NCBI GenBank assembly: GCA_016235045.1
Contig: JACRME010000004.1
Span: 1 to 64,000, forward strand
Direction: 5' to 3'
DNA length: 64,000 nucleotides
DNA from: Nitrosomonadales bacterium
Lineage (GTDB): Bacteria; Pseudomonadota; Gammaproteobacteria; Burkholderiales; Gallionellaceae
Shown here in pieces: positions 17,496 to 54,757 of this stretch. The notes under the pieces were generated by a model. The model had not been told where the DNA came from. It saw only the letters and a list, made by a program, of their open reading frames with translations, and made no database searches. A program made the translations under genes and the position numbers. Numbering within the stretch: position 1 is the stretch's first letter; every line of letters starts with the position of its first letter.

Positions 17496-17701
17496 GCTTC
17501 ACCTCGCTTTCCTTATTCAATGCAGAGGGAGTGCCACCATTTTCATTGACCGTGCCATAAGGCGGAGTGGCTCATGCACGCACGCTAACCCGCCCTTGAT
17601 GCAGGGTCAATATGCCAAACGGCCTAGATACACCTCTGTCCACACGCTTTTCCTGCATGCCATGCCATCGCGCACGCTTTCTTGCTAAGATGCGCGGCAC
17701 T

Positions 17702-18928
17702 ATGGAGCAAGCCCAGACAAAACGCATCGTACTCGGCATTACCGGCGGCATCGCGGCCTACAAGGCGGCGGAACTGGCACGTTTGCTGGTGAAGCAAAAC
17801 ATTGAGGTACAGGTGGCGATGACGGAGGCGGCGACGCACTTCATCACACCCGCCACCATGCAGGCGCTGACCGGCAACCCGGTGCTGGTCAACCAGTGGC
17901 AGGACGACAAGGGCATGGCGCATATCCAGACCAGCCGCGTCGCCGATGCCATCGTGATCGCGCCCGCCACGGCGGACTTTATCGCCAAGCTGGCAAACGG
18001 GCTGGCCAACGATTTGCTCTCCTCCCTGTGCCTAGCGCGCGATTGTCCCTTGCTGGTGGCGCCTGCGATGAACAGGCAGATGTGGGCGAATGCGGCGACG
18101 CAGCGGAATGTGCAGCAGCTTGCTGATGACGGCGTGATGCTGTTGGGGCCGGCCAGCGGAGCGCAGGCTTGCGGCGAGGAAGGTATGGGGCGGATGGTGG
18201 AGGCGGAGGAGTTGGCGCGGGATATTGTTGCGGCGCTGCGAAATCCGGCCCTCTCCCCTACCCTCTCCCGCCCGCGGGAGAGGGAGTTAAGCGGGGTGAG
18301 GGTACTCATTACTGCAGGACCGACTTATGAAGCCATTGACGCGGTGCGCGGCATTACCAACCGTAGTAGCGGCAAGATGGGTTATGCCATTGCGCAGGCG
18401 GCGGTGGAGATGGGCGCCGAGGTGTTGCTGGTGTCTGGGCCGACGTCGCTGACCAAGCCGCTAGGTGTGCAGGTCGTGAACGTCACCAGTGCCGCCGAGA
18501 TGTTTGAGGCGGTAAAACAACAGGTGGCGAATGCGGATATATTTATCGGTGTCGCCGCGGTGGCAGATTACCGCGTTGCGCAGCCGAGCGAACAGAAGAT
18601 CAAGAAGAGCGATGCCGCGCTGACGCTAGAGCTCATTCCCAACCCGGACATACTGGCCTACGTTGCCAGCCTGCCCAGGCCCCCTTTCTGCGTAGGCTTC
18701 GCGGCAGAGAGCGAGAAGCTGCGCGAACACGCTGCAGCCAAACGCAAGAAAAAGAACATTCCGCTGCTTGCCGCCAATCTGGCGCAGAACGCCATCGGCA
18801 GCGACGACAATGAACTGGTATTGTTCGACGCTGCGGGCGAGCATGTGTTGCCGCGCGCCGATAAACTCGTTTTGGCTCGGGCGCTGTTGCGTCACGCCGC
18901 GGTTCTTTACAAGAAAGGAAGCAAGTAA
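17702..18928 (+). CDS. coaBC: Bifunctional phosphopantothenoylcysteine decarboxylase / phosphopantothenate-cysteine ligase
   Basis: CoaBC (408 aa) makes 4'-phosphopantetheine precursors in coenzyme A synthesis. The N-terminal flavoprotein decarboxylase has [18 protein letters not shown], the substrate segment PAMNRQMW and the active-site lid region with Cys ([14 protein letters not shown]). The C-terminal ligase has [21 protein letters not shown] chose ATG 17702 over an in-frame codon 90 nt upstream because homology starts there. The linker (residues ~182-200) is encoded by a GC-rich palindrome (18247-18300). It overlaps the dut start by 1 nt. Confidence 0.95.
18247..18300. repeat. Palindromic REP-like element inside coaBC
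   Basis: A perfect 10-bp stem CCCTCTCCCG (18261-18270) / CGGGAGAGGG (18275-18284) is surrounded by outer arms CCCTCTCCCCTA and GCGGGGTGAGGGT that also partly pair. The element is read in frame as the linker between CoaC and CoaB. The reverse complement resembles the element at 48685-48756 in addA. Confidence 0.8.
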
Positions 18929-48306: not shown

Positions 48307-51300
48307 CTAAACCACCTCACTCAACGCCCCCTCCGCAAACACCAGCGCGCACCTGACGATCTTGCTTGCATGCACCGTCTGCATCGCAGTTCGATATTCC
48401 TGCATCTGCGCACGATAACGCGCTGCATCTTCCGAATCGCCCAGCTTGTAATCCAGCACCCACACTTCGTCATCGAATTCGACCAAGCGGTCGATGCGTT
48501 TCAGTTCGCCTTTGGCGTTGACGTAGGGCATCTCGTTGCAGGCGGTGCGGTATTGCCTGGCGTCGAAGAAACGGGCGAGTTGGGGCGTGGTGAGCAGGCT
48601 TTGGGCTTGTTGCCAGAGGGGGTCGAACGCTTCGGCGGGGATGACCAGGCGGTGCTGGAGTTCGGCGCGCTGGATTGTCGAGTACGCCCTCACCCCCAGC
48701 CCCGTGAGAACTCCCTCTCCCTTCGGGAGAGGGCATGGGGTGAGGGGCGGGAGAGGGGAGTCTGAGGCGGTGAGGTGTTGCAGCAACGCGTGCAGCCAGA
48801 TGCCGCGCTGTTGTTGCGGGGTGTTGCGGGGGGCGCGCTTTCCGGTTGGGGTAATGGTCGGCAGCACAAAGTTCCCTCCCCCATGCAGGGGGAGGGCCAG
48901 GGTGGGGGGAGCGTCGGTGAGGGCCAGCGATTCAACCCCCATCCCAGCCTTCCCCCTGAGAGGGGGAAGGGGTTGATCGGCGTTGCGAGGGATCGCCACC
49001 GCCGCGATACGCCCGTACCAGGTGAGTTGTTTGGTTTCCCTTGCCCCCTGGTTGCCGCTGACGATGAGCGCCTGCTGCGCGCGGGTCATGGCGACATAAA
49101 GCAGGTTCATCTCTTCGCGGGCTTGCTGGGCAGCGTCTTGCTCGAACAGCGGCGCGCGTCTCTTGCCGCGCGAGGCCTGGTCGGTGTAGAGAGAGAAATG
49201 CAGCGGGCGTTCTTCGTGGGTCGGCCAGTCGAGCAACACGTCGTTGCCATCCCGGTTCTTCTTTTCTTCATTCGCATCCAGCAGCCAGACGATGGGGGCT
49301 TCCAGACCTTTCGATTCATGCACGGTGAAGATGCGCACCGCGTCGCCTGCGGCGCCAAGCTTGCCTTCATCCGGCGCGTCGTCACTGCTGTCGCGCAACT
49401 CGCGCAGTTCCTGCAGGAAGCGCGGCAGGCTGGGATAACGACCGGCATCGACGCTCAGCGCGATCTCCATGAAGGCGTGCAGGTTGGCGGTGACCTTGGC
49501 GCGCATCTCGGGCGGCAGCACAGCACTGTAGCGCGCGATTACGTCGCCCTCGAAATAGATGCGGTCGAGCAGGTCGTGCACGGGAAGTTTGTCGGCGAGG
49601 GCTAGCCAGCGCTGCAACAGTTCGGCGGCGCGCTGCAGGGCGGGAGAGGGATGCTCCAGATTTTGCAGGCAAGACCACCAGCTTCTACCCCCACCCCATC
49701 CCTCCCCCTGCAAGGGGGAGGGAGTGGTTGCGGTGAGGCGCATCAAATCGGCATCGCTGCACGCGAAGACGGGCGTGCGCAGCACTTGCGCCAGCGCGAG
49801 ATCGGCGAAAGGGGTGATGAGGAACAGCAGCAGCGCCTGTATGTCCTCCGCTTCCAGCGTATCGAGCAGCCCGCCGCGGCGCGAACTGATGAAGGGGATA
49901 TGTCTTGCGCGCAGGGCCTCCTCATATACCGCAAGGTGGGTGCGGGTGCGCACCAGCGCCATGATGTCGCCCCAGGTGGCGCGGCGCGGATTTCCATCAT
50001 TGTTCACCGACCAGTCGCGGGTGATGGTTTGCAGTTGTGCGGCGAACTGTTCGGCTTCCTTGTGGCGCGCGCCCTCGCCTGCTTCTTCTCTTTTGGTGGT
50101 GAGGGGATTGCGGAGTTGCAGCACTTTCTCAGAACCCTCTCCCCCAGCCCCTCCCCCGCCTGCGGGGGAGGGGAGTTCATCGGTGACCGCCAGCGGTAGC
50201 ACCAGCACATGGCCGGGCAGTTCCTTGTGATGGGTCTGGTGCTCGATAAACTCGAAGCCGTCCGGCTGTTCCCTGAACACGGCATTTACCGCATCGACGA
50301 CAGCTTGCGAGTTGCGGCGCGTGAGGCTGTTGCCCAAGGTCTCGGCCAGGAAGTGTTCTTGCAGGTATTCGCGCGCCACGCCGAACAGGCGCGCGTCGGC
50401 ACGGCGGAAGCGGTAGATGGATTGCTTGGGGTCGCCGACGACGAACACGGTCGGCTGCGATTCCACCGCCACCGCCGCATCGAACCATGCGCGCAGTATC
50501 TGCCATTGCAGCGGGTTGGTGTCCTGGAACTCGTCCAGCAGCACATGGCGATAGCGGCTGTCGAGCTTGTACTGCATGGTCTCGGCGTGTTCGCTCTGCT
50601 GCAGCAGGCGGCACAGTTGCCATTCCAGGTCGGAGAAATCCATCTGCTGCTTCTGCGCCTTGAGCGACTGATAGCGCTCAAGCAAGGCGACACCGCAATG
50701 CAGCACGGCGATGTTGAGGCGATAGGCCTGTTGATCGGCCAGAATATCGCGCACCATCTGCATGTTGGCGTGCAGCAGGGAAAGCGCCCTGGTAAAGATG
50801 CCCGCATCCTGGCTCCTGGTCGGCTTGAACTTGCGCGGCTCGTTCTTCTGCGTGAACAACAGCGGCCAGATCGCGTTGAAGCGCTCTCCGGGAGCAGTAT
50901 CCGTCCAGGAGCGTTCCAGCTCGGCGGCATTCGCCTTCTGGGTATCGGTGCCCTTGCTGCCGAGATGGTGCATGAAGGCGAACAGCGATTCTTCGCTGAT
51001 GCCGCACATCCCCCAGTCTTCCACCGGGTCGAACTCCAGGTCGACGTCGAGATAGGTATGCAGTCCCTCCAGCACGGACTTCAGTGCATCCTGCCTCCCC
51101 TGTGTATACGCCCACCATTCGGCGCGCTTGCCAAGGAAGTTGAACAGCAGCTTGCGCGTGGTGAACAGGCCGCACTCGCCGAACAGCCATTGCATGTGGC
51201 CGGCTTCGGCGCTGTCCGGTTGCTTGCGCATCTGCTCCAGCAACTCTTCCCAGGCTTCCTCCTGCTCGCTGCCCGCGCGTTCCAGCAGAGACGAGCCCTG

Positions 51301-51705
51301 CATCGCGTCGGCATTCAACGGCGCACGCTGCATGACTTGCATGAACCAGCCGTGGAAAGTGCTGATGGTGATGCCGGGCTGGGCCAGCAATACGCTGCTG
51401 TAGAGACTGCGGGCGCGCTGCAATTGCCCGGCGCTCATTTCCGGAATGCCGCGTTCGGCGAAGAACTTGCGCACAGCGGCCTCGTCGCCCCTCGCCAGAT
51501 AACATAGCCACTGCTGCAGACGGAACTGCATCTCCTGCGCCGCCTTGCGCGTGAAGGTGATGGCAAGTATCTGCGACGGCTGTGCGCCGTCCAGCAACAA
51601 CCGCACGATGCGCGACACCAGCAGCCAGGTCTTGCCGCTGCCGGCGCAGGCTTCGACGACGACGCTGCGTTTGGGATCGAGGGCGATGTGGTTGGTCACA
51701 ACCAT
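48307..51705 (-). CDS. addA: AddA-type helicase-nuclease (double-strand break repair)
   Basis: A UvrD/RecB-superfamily protein of 1132 aa. Helicase motifs: Walker A EACAGSGKTWLL, Ia AITFTRKAAQEM, II LLDEFQDTNPLQW, III VVGDPKQSIYRFRRAD, V TVHESKGLEAPIVWLLD, VI YVAMTRAQQALIVSG. The C-terminal PD-(D/E)XK nuclease has RIDRLVEFDDEVWVLDYKLG. With AddB it would resect broken DNA ends for RecA. Four GC-rich palindromic inserts interrupt the protein at about residues 511-523, 662-674, 912-944 and 984-1007. ATG 51705 overlaps the addB end by 10 nt. Confidence 0.88.
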   Translation of the reverse strand: MVVTNHIALDPKRSVVVEACAGSGKTWLLVSRIVRLLLDGAQPSQILAITFTRKAAQEMQFRLQQWLCYLARGDEAAVRKFFAERGIPEMSAGQLQRARSLYSSVLLAQPGITISTFHGWFMQVMQRAPLNADAMQGSSLLERAGSEQEEAWEELLEQMRKQPDSAEAGHMQWLFGECGLFTTRKLLFNFLGKRAEWWAYTQGRQDALKSVLEGLHTYLDVDLEFDPVEDWGMCGISEESLFAFMHHLGSKGTDTQKANAAELERSWTDTAPGERFNAIWPLLFTQKNEPRKFKPTRSQDAGIFTRALSLLHANMQMVRDILADQQAYRLNIAVLHCGVALLERYQSLKAQKQQMDFSDLEWQLCRLLQQSEHAETMQYKLDSRYRHVLLDEFQDTNPLQWQILRAWFDAAVAVESQPTVFVVGDPKQSIYRFRRADARLFGVAREYLQEHFLAETLGNSLTRRNSQAVVDAVNAVFREQPDGFEFIEHQTHHKELPGHVLVLPLAVTDELPSPAGGGGAGGEGSEKVLQLRNPLTTKREEAGEGARHKEAEQFAAQLQTITRDWSVNNDGNPRRATWGDIMALVRTRTHLAVYEEALRARHIPFISSRRGGLLDTLEAEDIQALLLFLITPFADLALAQVLRTPVFACSDADLMRLTATTPSPLQGEGWGGGRSWWSCLQNLEHPSPALQRAAELLQRWLALADKLPVHDLLDRIYFEGDVIARYSAVLPPEMRAKVTANLHAFMEIALSVDAGRYPSLPRFLQELRELRDSSDDAPDEGKLGAAGDAVRIFTVHESKGLEAPIVWLLDANEEKKNRDGNDVLLDWPTHEERPLHFSLYTDQASRGKRRAPLFEQDAAQQAREEMNLLYVAMTRAQQALIVSGNQGARETKQLTWYGRIAAVAIPRNADQPLPPLRGKAGMGVESLALTDAPPTLALPLHGGGNFVLPTITPTGKRAPRNTPQQQRGIWLHALLQHLTASDSPLPPLTPCPLPKGEGVLTGLGVRAYSTIQRAELQHRLVIPAEAFDPLWQQAQSLLTTPQLARFFDARQYRTACNEMPYVNAKGELKRIDRLVEFDDEVWVLDYKLGDSEDAARYRAQMQEYRTAMQTVHASKIVRCALVFAEGALSEVV
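48685..48756. repeat. Palindromic element B inside addA
   Basis: Inner perfect 9-bp stem CCCTCTCCC (48713-48721) / GGGAGAGGG (48725-48733) within outer arms CCCTCACCCCCA and ATGGGGTGAGGGG. Read in frame on the minus strand as a Pro/Gly-rich peptide (TPCPLPKGEG). Closely related to the reverse complement of the coaBC element. Confidence 0.8.
48874..48970. repeat. 97-bp composite palindromic element, copy 1 (inside addA)
   Basis: Two hairpins in inverted orientation: CCCTCCCCC-5nt-GGGGGAGGG (48874-48896) and CCTTCCCCC-5nt-GGGGGAAGG (48948-48970). Each has a 14-nt tail (CCAGGGTGGGGGGA and its partner AACCCCCATCCCAG), and a 23-nt spacer lies between the tails. Read on the minus strand it gives LPPLRGKAGMGVES... 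ending ALPLHGGG. Confidence 0.88.
49686..49722. repeat. Single 37-bp REP-like half element inside addA
   Basis: TACCCCCACCCCAT followed by hairpin CCCTCCCCC-5nt-GGGGGAGGG. It equals one half of the 97-bp composite in reverse orientation. In frame it encodes [12 protein letters not shown] in AddA. Confidence 0.82.
50134..50173. repeat. Palindromic element inside addA (variant)
   Basis: Perfect 10-bp stem CCCCTCCCCC (50148-50157) / GGGGGAGGGG (50164-50173), preceded by ACCCTCTCCCCCAG. In frame it encodes SPAGGGGAGGEGSE. Confidence 0.78.
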
Positions 51706-54437
51706 TCTCCCTTGCGGCACACACCGCGCATCTCGCAATGCGCGCATGCCGCATCGATGCCGTTCGCGGGCAACCCTGCCCCGGCACGAATACTGGCCAT
51801 CGCGTGCTCTAGGCGCTCGGCATTGAGCTGGGCCAGCAACGGTACATCATCCTTGGGCGCGACCAGTTTCACCTTGCCGTTATCGATGCTGACGAATGCC
51901 GCATCGGCTGCTTCATGCGCGTAGGCGTAGCAGGCAAGTTGCACATCCTCGCCCGGCTCTTTCAGCTTATTGCGCAATAGTTGCTCATTTTGCGTCTTGT
52001 AATCGAGCACAAGCTTTTCATCCGCTTTCACATCCAGCCGGTCGATGCGTCCGCGCAGGCGGATGCCTTCCAGCGGCCATTCGAATTTCTGTTCGGATCC
52101 GGCATAACGCCACCCCCCGGCTTCCCATTCCGTTTGCCATTCGAGATACGCAGGCACGGACTTGTTCCACTGCGCCAACCAGGCACGCGCCGCGAAATCC
52201 TGCGCCAGCAGGTCAGCAAATTCTTCTTCGCCGATGCTGCGCAGAGCAGCCGCCATCTCCTCCGCAGCGTGTCCGCTCACTTGCGGATAACGCTCGTGGA
52301 AGCGCTGCAGGATGCCGTGCACGCGCTCGCCGTAGTCGCGTTTCTCGATGACCTCCTGCACCTCGTCCAGTTCATTCAGGCGCAGGATGTGGCGCGCATA
52401 AAACTGGTAGGGGCAGGCCACCAGCGAGTTGTAGCCGCTGATGGAGACGCTTGCGGGCACGGTTTCCGCCGATACACTCGGTGCGGGCAGCGCCGCCAGC
52501 GGTAATGCCACGCTGCGTTCGTCTTCTATTTCCAGCAAAGCTATTAATTCGACCTCACCCCCTCCCCCTTGCAGGGGGAGGGCTGGGGTGGGGGTAGAGT
52601 CGTTCCCTACCTCGGCGTCTACCCCCATCCCAACCTTCCCCCTGCATGGGGGAAGGAGTAAAGACGCCGCAGCTATTTCATCACGCAGTATCTGCAGGAA
52701 CGGACTCAGCAAGCGCGCTTCGCCGTCCTTGTCCTTCTGCCAGGTGACCAGTACGCAATCGTTCAGCGCAAGCAGCGCACGCAGGTCATCGTGCTGACGT
52801 GCAGCGTGGGTGCTGCGCGTGGGCAGGTTAAGCGCGGAGCGTACCGCATCGTTGAACCAGCGCCCGCCGTTTGCAGCACTCGGCAGGTGGTCGGCATCGC
52901 AACCGAGCAGCAGCACCGCATCGAAGGCGCGCCAGCGCGTGGCCGCCAGATGGGTGAAGCGCACTGTACTGTCGATGCTGCTGTCGCGGAACGTCTCGGT
53001 GTCCAGTTGTTGCGCCAGCCAGCGGCGCCATTCGGCGAAACGGTAGCGGCCCTCGTCCCCTCGCAGCTCCTGCTGCCAGTTGTCGAGCGCACGCAGCAAT
53101 TGCTGGCCCGCGTCGTCTTGCTGCAATCCCCTGTCGATACCCAGTACCTCCAGGCTCTGCCGCAATGCGGAGAGCCACTCCGCCAGGGTGTGTTTCCTAT
53201 TCTGTTCCAGCAGCGCCGCCGCCTGGCGCAGGCGCGCCAGCGGCTGGTGCAATGCCACTTCATGCGCGGCGAGTGCGACGAATTTCTCCAGCCCCGCCAC
53301 AACGCCCTGCTTGCGCAGCAACTGCTCCAGTTGATACACCGCCGACTTGCGCTCGCCCGCCGTCATGTCGGCGAAGATGAACGGCGACTTGAGCAGGTCG
53401 AGCAGGTCGACATGGTAGAAATCGCTTTGCAGCGCGGTGAGCCAGCGGTCCAGCACGGTGCTCACCGACAGCGTGGCGAAGGTCCAGCCGGTCTCGTCCG
53501 CCACCAGCACTTCGGCGCGTTCCAGCAAAGCGCGCGCGCGCCTTGCCACCACGCGATCCTGCGCCACGATGGCGATGTCGCGCTTGCCCGCGGCGAGCCA
53601 GCGGCGCACTTGCATGGCGGCGGCGCGGGCTTCTTGTTCGAGAGAGGTGGCGGCGAAGAACTTAATCTTCCCTCCCCCTTGCAGGGAGAGGGCTGGGGAG
53701 GGGGTAGGCTCGGTGATGTTTCCCGACTCTACCCCCATCCCACCCTTCCCCCTGCAAGGGGGAAGGAACTGACTTTGTACCATCTCTCTCAGGTCGAATA
53801 TCTTCACCGCCGCACGCTGCTCATATTCATCCAGAAAGCGCTGCTCCAGCGCCGTCCATTCCGAAGTTCGCAGCACATACAAGGGCTGCTGTGCCTTTGC
53901 GGCCAGTTGCGCCAGCCGCTGCTGATAAGCGCGCGCCGTATCCAGTTCTGCTCCGCTCTGCATGGCGTTCCACAGCTCGAACACCAGCCGCGCTTCCAGT
54001 TGCAGCGTGCTGTTCTGCCGCGCCTGATAGGCTTTCTGCACGGCGGCAGCGAAGGCTTCCGCGTTGTCGGGCAAGCCGGTGAGCGAATGCGTCAGTTCGT
54101 CGAACAGCGTCAGCAGTTCCTGCGTCATGCTCCACAGGTCGGCATGCTCGAACCATTGCAGTTTGTGCAACTGCTGGTACAGCAATGCGCTGCGCTGGCT
54201 GTCGGTGACGACGGGCGCCTCCAGTGCAACGCTTTGCGCCCATCCGTTCAGGGTTACCATCTGCGGCAGCAGCAATGCGGGACGTCGCGCACCGCGCATC
54301 AGCGCCTGTGCCAGCGGCTGCGCCGCATGGTAGTTGGGCAGGAGGACGGTGATGCCGCGCAGATCGGGAAGTGCGGCCGCGTGGGCAGTCAGGATGCGCT
54401 GCGCGACGCGGTCGAAGAAATCGGCAGCCTGGCTCAC
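51696..54437 (-). CDS. addB: AddB-type nuclease subunit with predicted 4Fe-4S cluster
   Basis: A 913-aa protein from GTG 54437, which forms a GTGA overlap with the ferredoxin stop. The N-terminal half is an inactivated helicase fold ([20 protein letters not shown], no Walker A lysine). The C-terminal PD-(D/E)XK nuclease has [20 protein letters not shown]. The iron-sulfur staple cysteines are visible: one in [13 protein letters not shown] and three in [11 protein letters not shown]. Two 97-bp palindromic elements add inserts at about residues 224-257 and 594-627. Partner of addA. Confidence 0.88.
52560..52656. repeat. 97-bp composite palindromic element, copy 2 (inside addB)
   Basis: Hairpins CCCTCCCCC-TTGCA-GGGGGAGGG (52560-52582) and CCTTCCCCC-TGCAT-GGGGGAAGG (52634-52656), each with a 14-nt tail (CTGGGGTGGGGGTA / TACCCCCATCCCAA), around a 23-nt spacer. 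In frame on the minus strand: [12 protein letters not shown] ... [12 protein letters not shown]. Confidence 0.9.
53670..53766. repeat. 97-bp composite palindromic element, copy 3 (inside addB)
   Basis: Hairpins CCCTCCCCC-TTGCA-GGGAGAGGG (53670-53692, one mismatch) and CCTTCCCCC-TGCAA-GGGGGAAGG (53744-53766), tails CTGGGGAGGGGGTA / TACCCCCATCCCAC, and a 23-nt spacer. In frame on the minus strand: [14 protein letters not shown] ... [11 protein letters not shown]. Confidence 0.9.
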
Positions 54438-54757
54438 CGCTTCAACAGATGGAGTTTGTCTTTCACGTTCAGCCACGCGTCCGCATCGTCGGGAGCGGCT
54501 TTCTTTTCGACGATGGGCTTCCACTTTTTGGCAAGCTCGGCGTTCAGCGCAAGGAACTGGTGCTGGTTTTCCGGCAGGTCTTCCTCGGCAAAGATCGCGC
54601 CTGCCGGGCATTCGGGCACGCACAGTGCGCAATCGATGCATTCGTCGGGATCGATTACGAGAAAATTTTCGCCCTCGCGGAAGCAGTCCACCGGACACAC
54701 CTCGACGCAATCGGTGTATTTGCAGCGAATGCAGTTTTCAGCAACGACGTAAGTCAT
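54434..54757 (-). CDS. fdxA: 7Fe ferredoxin (3Fe-4S/4Fe-4S, FdxA type)
   Basis: A 107-aa ferredoxin similar to Azotobacter ferredoxin I. Cysteines lie in [20 protein letters not shown] and [16 protein letters not shown], giving one 3Fe-4S and one 4Fe-4S cluster in the family. A conserved C-terminal extension of about 45 residues follows. It is upstream of addB on the same strand with a 4-nt overlap, so electron or cluster supply to the Fe-S AddB is conceivable (inference). SD GAGGTGCTCC precedes the ATG. Confidence 0.95.

Follow-up and report, generated by a model that had tools for sequence, protein, structure and literature searches.

The palindromic inserts in the addA and addB genes of a Gallionellaceae bacterium are, with a probability that we put at about 80%, inverted pairs of triplex-type repeats that are mobile and survive where AddA and AddB have tolerant loops, provided that the reading frame is restored. 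They lie in a 64,000-nucleotide stretch of contig JACRME010000004.1 (assembly GCA_016235045.1), here called the window, where three 97-bp composites stand beside smaller relatives; halves are called G type or K type according to their stems.

48307..51747, minus strand: addA, helicase-nuclease subunit, host gene (open reading frame; the true start is likely a few codons inside)
48713..48733: GGGAGAGGG-type hairpin in addA, encoding LTPCPLPKGEG, in a loop occupied in 7 of 20 AddA genes
48874..48970: 97-bp heterotypic inverted pair in addA; G-type half 48874-48910 (plus), spacer 48911-48933, K-type half 48934-48970 (minus)
49686..49722 (approximate), minus strand: lone G-type half in addA; hairpin 49700-49722, third strand 49688-49696
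50149..50172: hairpin CCCTCCCCC-GCCTGC-GGGGGAGGG in addA, in a loop with REP-type hairpins in 7 of 20 AddA genes
51696..54440, minus strand: addB, nuclease subunit, host gene (open reading frame)
52560..52656: 97-bp pair at addB site B2; G half 52560-52596 (plus), K half 52620-52656 (minus)
52560..52594: parts of the G half of the B2 pair; stem arms 52560-52568 and 52574-52582, third strand 52586-52594
53670..53766: 97-bp pair at addB site B1; G half 53670-53706 (plus), K half 53730-53766 (minus)

Inserts in addA and addB

The addA product matches TIGR02784 (addA_alphas, E = 8.8e-131, below the curated cut-off) and the Pfam families UvrD-helicase, UvrD_C and PDDEXK_1, and the addB product matches TIGR02786 (addB_alphas, E = 2.1e-39, again below the curated cut-off), with Pfam PDDEXK_1 at residues 664-908. 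The original prediction, made from the window alone, had placed three 97-bp inverted pairs in frame in these genes, and we confirm all three: copies 2 and 3 are 77% and 81% identical to copy 1 in a 99-nt register, and as single-stranded DNA each copy folds better than 200 of 200 dinucleotide shuffles (z = -4.67, -7.49 and -5.96). The identical architecture with compensated stems that it ascribed to them is borne out in that three pairs are present, but the left stem of copy 3 is imperfect (CCCTCCCCC with GGGAGAGGG). Beyond its 97-bp pair, addA holds three further inserts of the same kind, a single half and two hairpins.

Composition of the halves

Judged by sequence, the halves of the 97-bp pairs fit the intrastrand-triplex motif known as BoxC, PIT or TM_ECO, and probably form a triple helix. 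The motif is given, in the accessible part of Holder et al. (2015, PMC4666352), as CCCTCNCCC-N3-6-GGGNGAGGG-N3-GGGNGAGGG. Across the sampled stretches, 101 of 104 perfect-stem hairpins have a G-rich 9-mer three bases past the purine arm, and these 101 halves divide by stem into 45 GGGGGAAGG (K), 43 GGGGGAGGG (G) and 13 GGGAGAGGG. The third strand tracks the stem, being GGATGGGGG with K, GGGTGGGGG or GGGAGGGGG with G, and GGGAGAGGG with the third type. When third strand is set against purine arm by the triad rule, 878 of 909 triads are canonical and none of 500 third-strand reassignments is as good; the strand of each half was chosen as the one whose following 9-mer is more G-rich, which fixes composition and not the shuffled association. 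At third-strand position 3, G accompanies a stem G in 54 of 56 cases and A a stem A in 45 of 45, and at position 6 the corresponding counts are 84 of 88 and 10 of 13, a covariation that, because the three stem types are mutually related, represents only about two independent compensated changes. Since the third strand matches the stem by this rule, the 14-nt 'tail' comprises a loop, the third strand and the start of GTAG; the earlier view of each half as a hairpin with a tail was thus right about the hairpin and missed that the tail supplies the third strand in a triplex motif already described.

The TM_ECO pattern Y9-loop-R9-N3-R9, with one mismatch permitted, takes in 51 of the 101 halves (9 exact, 42 with one mismatch). 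The remaining 50, mainly K-type, exceed one mismatch (two halves with 2, two with 3, 44 with 4 and two with 5) and keep the triad rules; 45 K-type halves have at least three mismatches, mostly compensated in all three strands. The second loop is TTA in 29 of the 101, and GTAG lies 3' of the third strand in 70, the halves mostly ending GTAGA. Among 24 adjacent inverted pairs, 21 combine K with G, against 9.2 expected (0 of 20,000 samplings reached 21), and none is K+K or G+G.

As far as the accessible part of Holder et al. describes BoxC/PIT/TM_ECO elements, the family here shares their three-block design, their dispersed high copy number, the frequent TTA of the second loop and heterotypic inverted pairing (type A with type B in five of five E. 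coli BoxC inverted pairs), but has CCCTCCCCC and CCTTCCCCC as its principal stems, and its third strand is altered to match. Whereas the same text counts 23 BoxC/TM_ECO copies in E. coli K-12, all intergenic, 24 of the 90 clusters that we sampled lie in frame in 17 genes; it also states that no associated mobile element was found and argues by NMR against TM_ECO as a G-quadruplex (PMC4666352).

The family across the genome

The repeat extends, as the original prediction required, well beyond the window. Searches of the 3.15-Mb genome placed the hairpin (at most one mismatch) at 105 sites and the 35-nt half (at most three mismatches) at 118 (57 + 61), and reversed-pattern controls returned 0 in both cases, which rejects a chance origin of the repeats. 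Among named genomes, the closest relatives of this one are metagenome-derived members of the Gallionellaceae that carry the labels Sideroxydans, Sideroxyarcus and Gallionella. Among 20 strictly defined pairs length ranges from 91 to 121 bp, so that 97 bp, offered earlier as an exact length, is only the commonest (8 of 20). Two pair copies at different loci (L127 3003-3106 and L149 3052-3155) are 98% identical, spacer included, which suggests that the unit was recently copied as a whole.

The three window copies do share frame and direction, as claimed, but frame 1 is the sole usually open frame of a pair in either orientation: it is open in 14 of the 20 pairs read K first and in 17 read G first, against 7, 4, 3 and 0 for the remaining four frames, and closed frames are mostly ended by a TAG at the third-strand end. 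With frame 1 inherently open, the shared frame is a requirement for surviving in a gene. We therefore rejected frame and direction as a sign of targeting, the open frame being intrinsic to the element.

Empty and refilled sites

Orthologues with empty sites prove that insertion occurred. From anchor to anchor, B1 spans 180 bp in the window and L099 and 84 bp in the empty L106, L103, L085 and L084 (+96 bp), and B2 spans 183 bp in the window, L099 and L106 and 93 bp in the empty L103, L085 and L084 (+90 bp). These net gains, measured in loops that also diverge, so that the exact ends are approximate and any target duplication conjectural, do not agree with the 99-bp, 33-codon unit first proposed. 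In the AddB tree (37 rows) the window groups with L099 (support 100/96) and both with L106 (95/90), which implies one entry at B2 in the line of all three and one at B1 in that of the window and L099. The same insert at the same position in distant genera, which would have spoken against recent insertion, was absent from 16 genomes of other families of the order.

In relatives, the same loops of AddA and AddB have been filled anew in independent events, some of them involving unrelated dRS3-like pairs. At B2, L083 carries an independent pair with a small repeat inside (+108 bp over L093, L086 and L102, its sister L093 being empty), and L096 has a hairpin there (+81 over its sister L095). Hairpins in 34 AddB and 20 AddA genes fall at three AddB sites, one of them the C terminus, and at seven or eight AddA positions; by parsimony the AddB tree calls for 3 changes at B1, 4 at B2 and 2 at the C terminus, and for 6 and 5 at two AddA loops (19 of 20 rows). 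Of two neighbouring AddA positions where the window has its 97-bp pair, both hold dRS3-like hairpins in L087, L095 and L104, and one does in L103. In these four genes the inverted pair ATTCCCGC...GCGGGAAT lies in frame at AddA core positions 891-911 and encodes PAQAGIQ...LDSRLRGND; we take it to be dRS3-like and unrelated to the 97-bp family. It is the loop that recurs, then, and not the element, and with several such loops in AddA and AddB, repeats of several families collect there repeatedly. AlphaFold models of AddA and AddB have mean pLDDT of 40.8 and 40.3, and the exposed position of the loops is accordingly judged from length variation and domain borders.

Several further inserts were seen in AddB. 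In G038, from another family of the order, L079 has a different REP hairpin (2 mismatches) at B1 (residue 312), so that this loop has been struck beyond the Gallionellaceae. A second short repeat (TTCGACAAGCTCAGGACAGG-like, encoding CPEPVEG or CPELVEG) is nested at the same internal place in the B2 pair of L083 and in an HrpA copy (L152 2951-3072). In-frame inserts of another kind, about 34-38 residues long and each in one species only, follow residue 49 of L102 AddB and the sequence GRIDRLDVR of L093 AddB, the latter adjoining the nuclease motif.

Other host genes

A census of the bacterium's own genome covered 54 stretches (470,606 bp, the window included) around the matches listed, and found 90 element clusters with a half pattern broad enough to pick up weak matches too. 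Seventeen genes with Pfam support together hold 24 of these clusters in frame: four in AddA, two each in AddB, HrpA, PurL and an adhesin-like protein, and one each in CoaBC, RecG, MnmC, MiaA, CysS, a glutamyl-tRNA-synthetase-like protein, a PepA-like protein, a U32 peptidase, an MFS transporter and NifE/N-like, GlpC-like and FadB-like proteins. This count excludes three open reading frames with no Pfam family (L108:2895-3914, L116:1471-4284 and window:42866-43864) and N-terminal cases in DRAT, IF-2B and a methyltransferase (L125, L133 and L138), whose true start may lie downstream. Several inserts fall between domains: that of CysS, at residue 336, sits in the interval from the end of one domain (319) to the start of the next (372), and the GGGAGAGGG-type REP hairpin of CoaBC (window 18250-18284, residue 216, in an open reading frame at 17600-18925, plus strand) occupies the linker between Flavoprotein (41-210) and DFP (230-408). 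Those of MiaA and the NifE/N-like protein lie within a single Pfam match. The RecG of this genome bears a K-type half at residue 414 (L132 5984-6028), and several genomes elsewhere in the genus have a RecG-like protein whose match to the mfd profile is broken near profile positions 575-583, which suggests another candidate hot loop.

Of the six gene families compared across the genus sample, AddA is the one most densely occupied by inserts. Sites per kb number 0.263 in AddA (12 of 24 genes), 0.134 in AddB (6 of 23), 0.090 in Mfd (7 of 23), 0.087 in PurL (6 of 26 loci from 24 genomes, fragments included), and 0 in UvrA (0 of 24, being 23 loci over the cut-off and one fragment, none from the own genome) and in CarB (0 of 25). 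AddA, with 21 sites in 79.9 kb, exceeds PurL and Mfd together, with 15 in 169.5 kb (p = 0.0018; when PurL was adopted as a control, the two elements that it carries in this genome were already known), and AddB shows no significant excess over them (p = 0.35). A general rule that repair genes are struck is rejected here by the insert-free UvrA and by metabolic PurL, which is struck as often as Mfd.

The AddA excess favours a reading that we hold to be unlikely overall, that the inserts are retained for a role in AddAB, whether through the protein (altered nuclease or recombination activity, mutator-type) or as DNA structure in cis; the freedom of UvrA and CarB from inserts and the similar rates of PurL and Mfd count against it, as does the patchy presence and type of the inserts across species and their absence from most orthologues. 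Survival of mobile pairs in tolerant loops, by comparison, is compatible with the way in which inserts follow the repeat content of genomes. Nine genomes without a half-pattern match yielded no REP-type hairpin in the AddA or AddB genes recovered from them (G008 has a dRS3-like one), and 13 of 17 genomes with a match have such a hairpin, a comparison in which genomes with one or two copies may count the same sites twice; this fits an insertion load.

Constraint on host proteins and conservation of insert DNA

Both host proteins are constrained, perhaps slightly relaxed in the insert-bearing clade: for the AddB core the window clade has dN/dS values of 0.131, 0.144 and 0.143, and six other pairs range over 0.084-0.124, while for AddA it has 0.198, 0.235 and 0.211 against 0.102-0.197 in four other pairs. 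These values bear on a reading that we find scarcely credible, in which splicing or some other process takes the inserts out, or the genes are pseudogenes in decay or artefacts of assembly. The genomes are metagenome assemblies and the inserts low-complexity and G/C-rich, as such a reading would have it, but independent assemblies (window, L099 and L106) share inserts by descent, the aligned genes are always in frame, helicase and nuclease motifs are kept and dN/dS is well below 1.

The insert DNA behaves differently from its host genes. Between the window and L099 synonymous divergence is 0.089 in the inserts against 0.855 in the core, and insert dN (0.21, 0.14 and 0.05) exceeds dS (0.09, 0.04 and 0), so the peptide is not conserved as a protein, which further weakens retention for a protein-level role. 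In the B2 copy of the three species, no three-strand position varies (0 of 54) against 9 of 43 in loop and spacer (p = 0.0004), and at fourfold sites in the B1 and B2 arms none of 31 has changed between window and L099 (about 12 expected; 132 of 349 changed in the rest of AddB). This conservation, a point for a retained DNA structure, concerns few sites, and in B1 3 of 54 three-strand positions differ, while the B2 spacer is nearly unchanged as well between L099 and L106 (1 of 23). Conservation at silent sites rules out protein-level selection as its cause; selection on DNA structure or gene conversion among copies can explain it, and the latter counts against functional retention.

RAYT genes

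A REP-associated tyrosine transposase (RAYT) that moves REP doublets, some of which became trapped in coding sequence, would also account for such inserts, and the inverted hairpin pair, the variable spacer sequence, the more than 100 halves per genome and eight RAYT-like genes are all in keeping with that origin. In E. coli REPs, GTAG stands at the 5' foot of the hairpin. Here GTAG follows the third strand in most halves, which recalls REPs, but it sits 3' of hairpin and third strand, unlike in E. coli. All eight matches to RAYT family NF047646 were inspected, in a genome about 95% complete that leaves room for a missing RAYT: none is flanked on both sides by the triplex repeat, the nearest approach of a G5-type copy to any of them is about 1.5 kb, and several carry other inverted repeats, such as GTCGGGTTA...TAACCCGAC. 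Both-side flanking was likewise absent among 30 RAYT loci of the genus and 12 stretches from further genomes. Five RAYT genes of the genus (L271, L272, L286, L287 and L300) have terminal repeats of their own, GTCGGGTTAGCGCAGCGTAACCCGAC, from a different REP family.

A cognate RAYT for the family is therefore rejected among the eight, no transposase tied to the triplex repeat was found, and we regard RAYT mobilization as improbable. The REPIN-like, mobile character first proposed survives in the dispersed inverted doublets, the in-frame coding inserts and the empty sites, but not in the sense of a RAYT-type REPIN, and the search for a RAYT (TnpA_REP) gene ended in genes unconnected with the repeat by flanking. 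In the accessible text of Bertels and Rainey (2011, PMC3116915), REPINs with RAYTs resemble the present family in their inverted REP doublet, spacer, hairpins and copy population; the family differs from them in having no flanked RAYT, a third-strand block, a spacer of variable length and an often intragenic position.

Discussion

The preferred reading, mobile triplex-type pairs surviving in tolerant loops, would work as follows. The 97-bp unit would join two different BoxC/PIT/TM_ECO-type elements in inverted orientation, each half running from pyrimidine arm through loop, purine arm and 3-nt loop to a purine-rich third strand that mirrors the purine arm, and a single strand of a half may fold, also in the cell, into a hairpin plus third strand, that is, a purine-motif intrastrand triplex. 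As a mobile repeat the family would have spread by transposition via some enzyme, with small changes of target length at insertion. Within genes, the survivors would be insertions into exposed, length-variable loops with the frame restored; each orientation offers one frame that avoids the stop at the third-strand end (GTAG), and survivors would be read in it, presumably adding some 30 Pro/Gly-rich residues to the protein. By inference, the inserts are not useful but simply tolerated.

Against the original supposition that the phenomenon had no prior description, in-gene REPs, recBCD included, were published in 2013. As presented in the accessible part of Di Nocera et al. (2013, PMC3733652), intragenic GTAG/CGTC REPs lie in frame, mostly as dimers, add 20-30 residues and occur in many replication and repair genes including recBCD; two Xanthomonas species have different REPs at about the same recB site, and a mutator effect is proposed for in-gene REPs. 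The inserts described here are likewise in-frame palindromic repeats in repair genes, but differ in their triplex motif and lineage, and in the tree-based site re-use, empty sites, family controls and insert-free UvrA documented for them. The same portion of that paper describes Rickettsia palindromic elements (RPE), CGTC-tagged, as palindromes in frame in many proteins, a behaviour that the 97-bp family shares; its unrelated sequence and lineage set it apart from RPE as so described (PMC3733652).

Among the open-licence papers searched we found no report of this triplex repeat as in-frame inserts, nor of re-used AddAB loops, and the literature on AddAB, Gallionellaceae repeats and RPE structure offered no direct precedent beyond PMC3733652 and PMC4666352. 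What is apparently new is that coding inserts are of triplex type, that loops are re-used and that three-strand positions are conserved inside coding sequence.

One testable case joins three literatures, those on REPINs, coding palindromes and triplex BoxC repeats, and it provides a natural map of where a large helicase-nuclease tolerates 30-residue inserts. Triplex-forming repeats stall replication and provoke breaks. A more speculative reading, to which we give still less credence than to the role in AddAB considered above, goes beyond tolerance: the addAB elements would be kept by selection as DNA structures, and the refilling of loops would come from repeat load and break repair feeding back on each other. 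If that were true, break-provoking repeats would persist inside the gene of the enzyme that processes breaks. The inserts are in any event a rare case of a DNA-structure motif conserved at synonymous sites within coding sequence, and if that conservation is due to selection rather than conversion, the motif would have a function, which has been missing since BoxC was first described.
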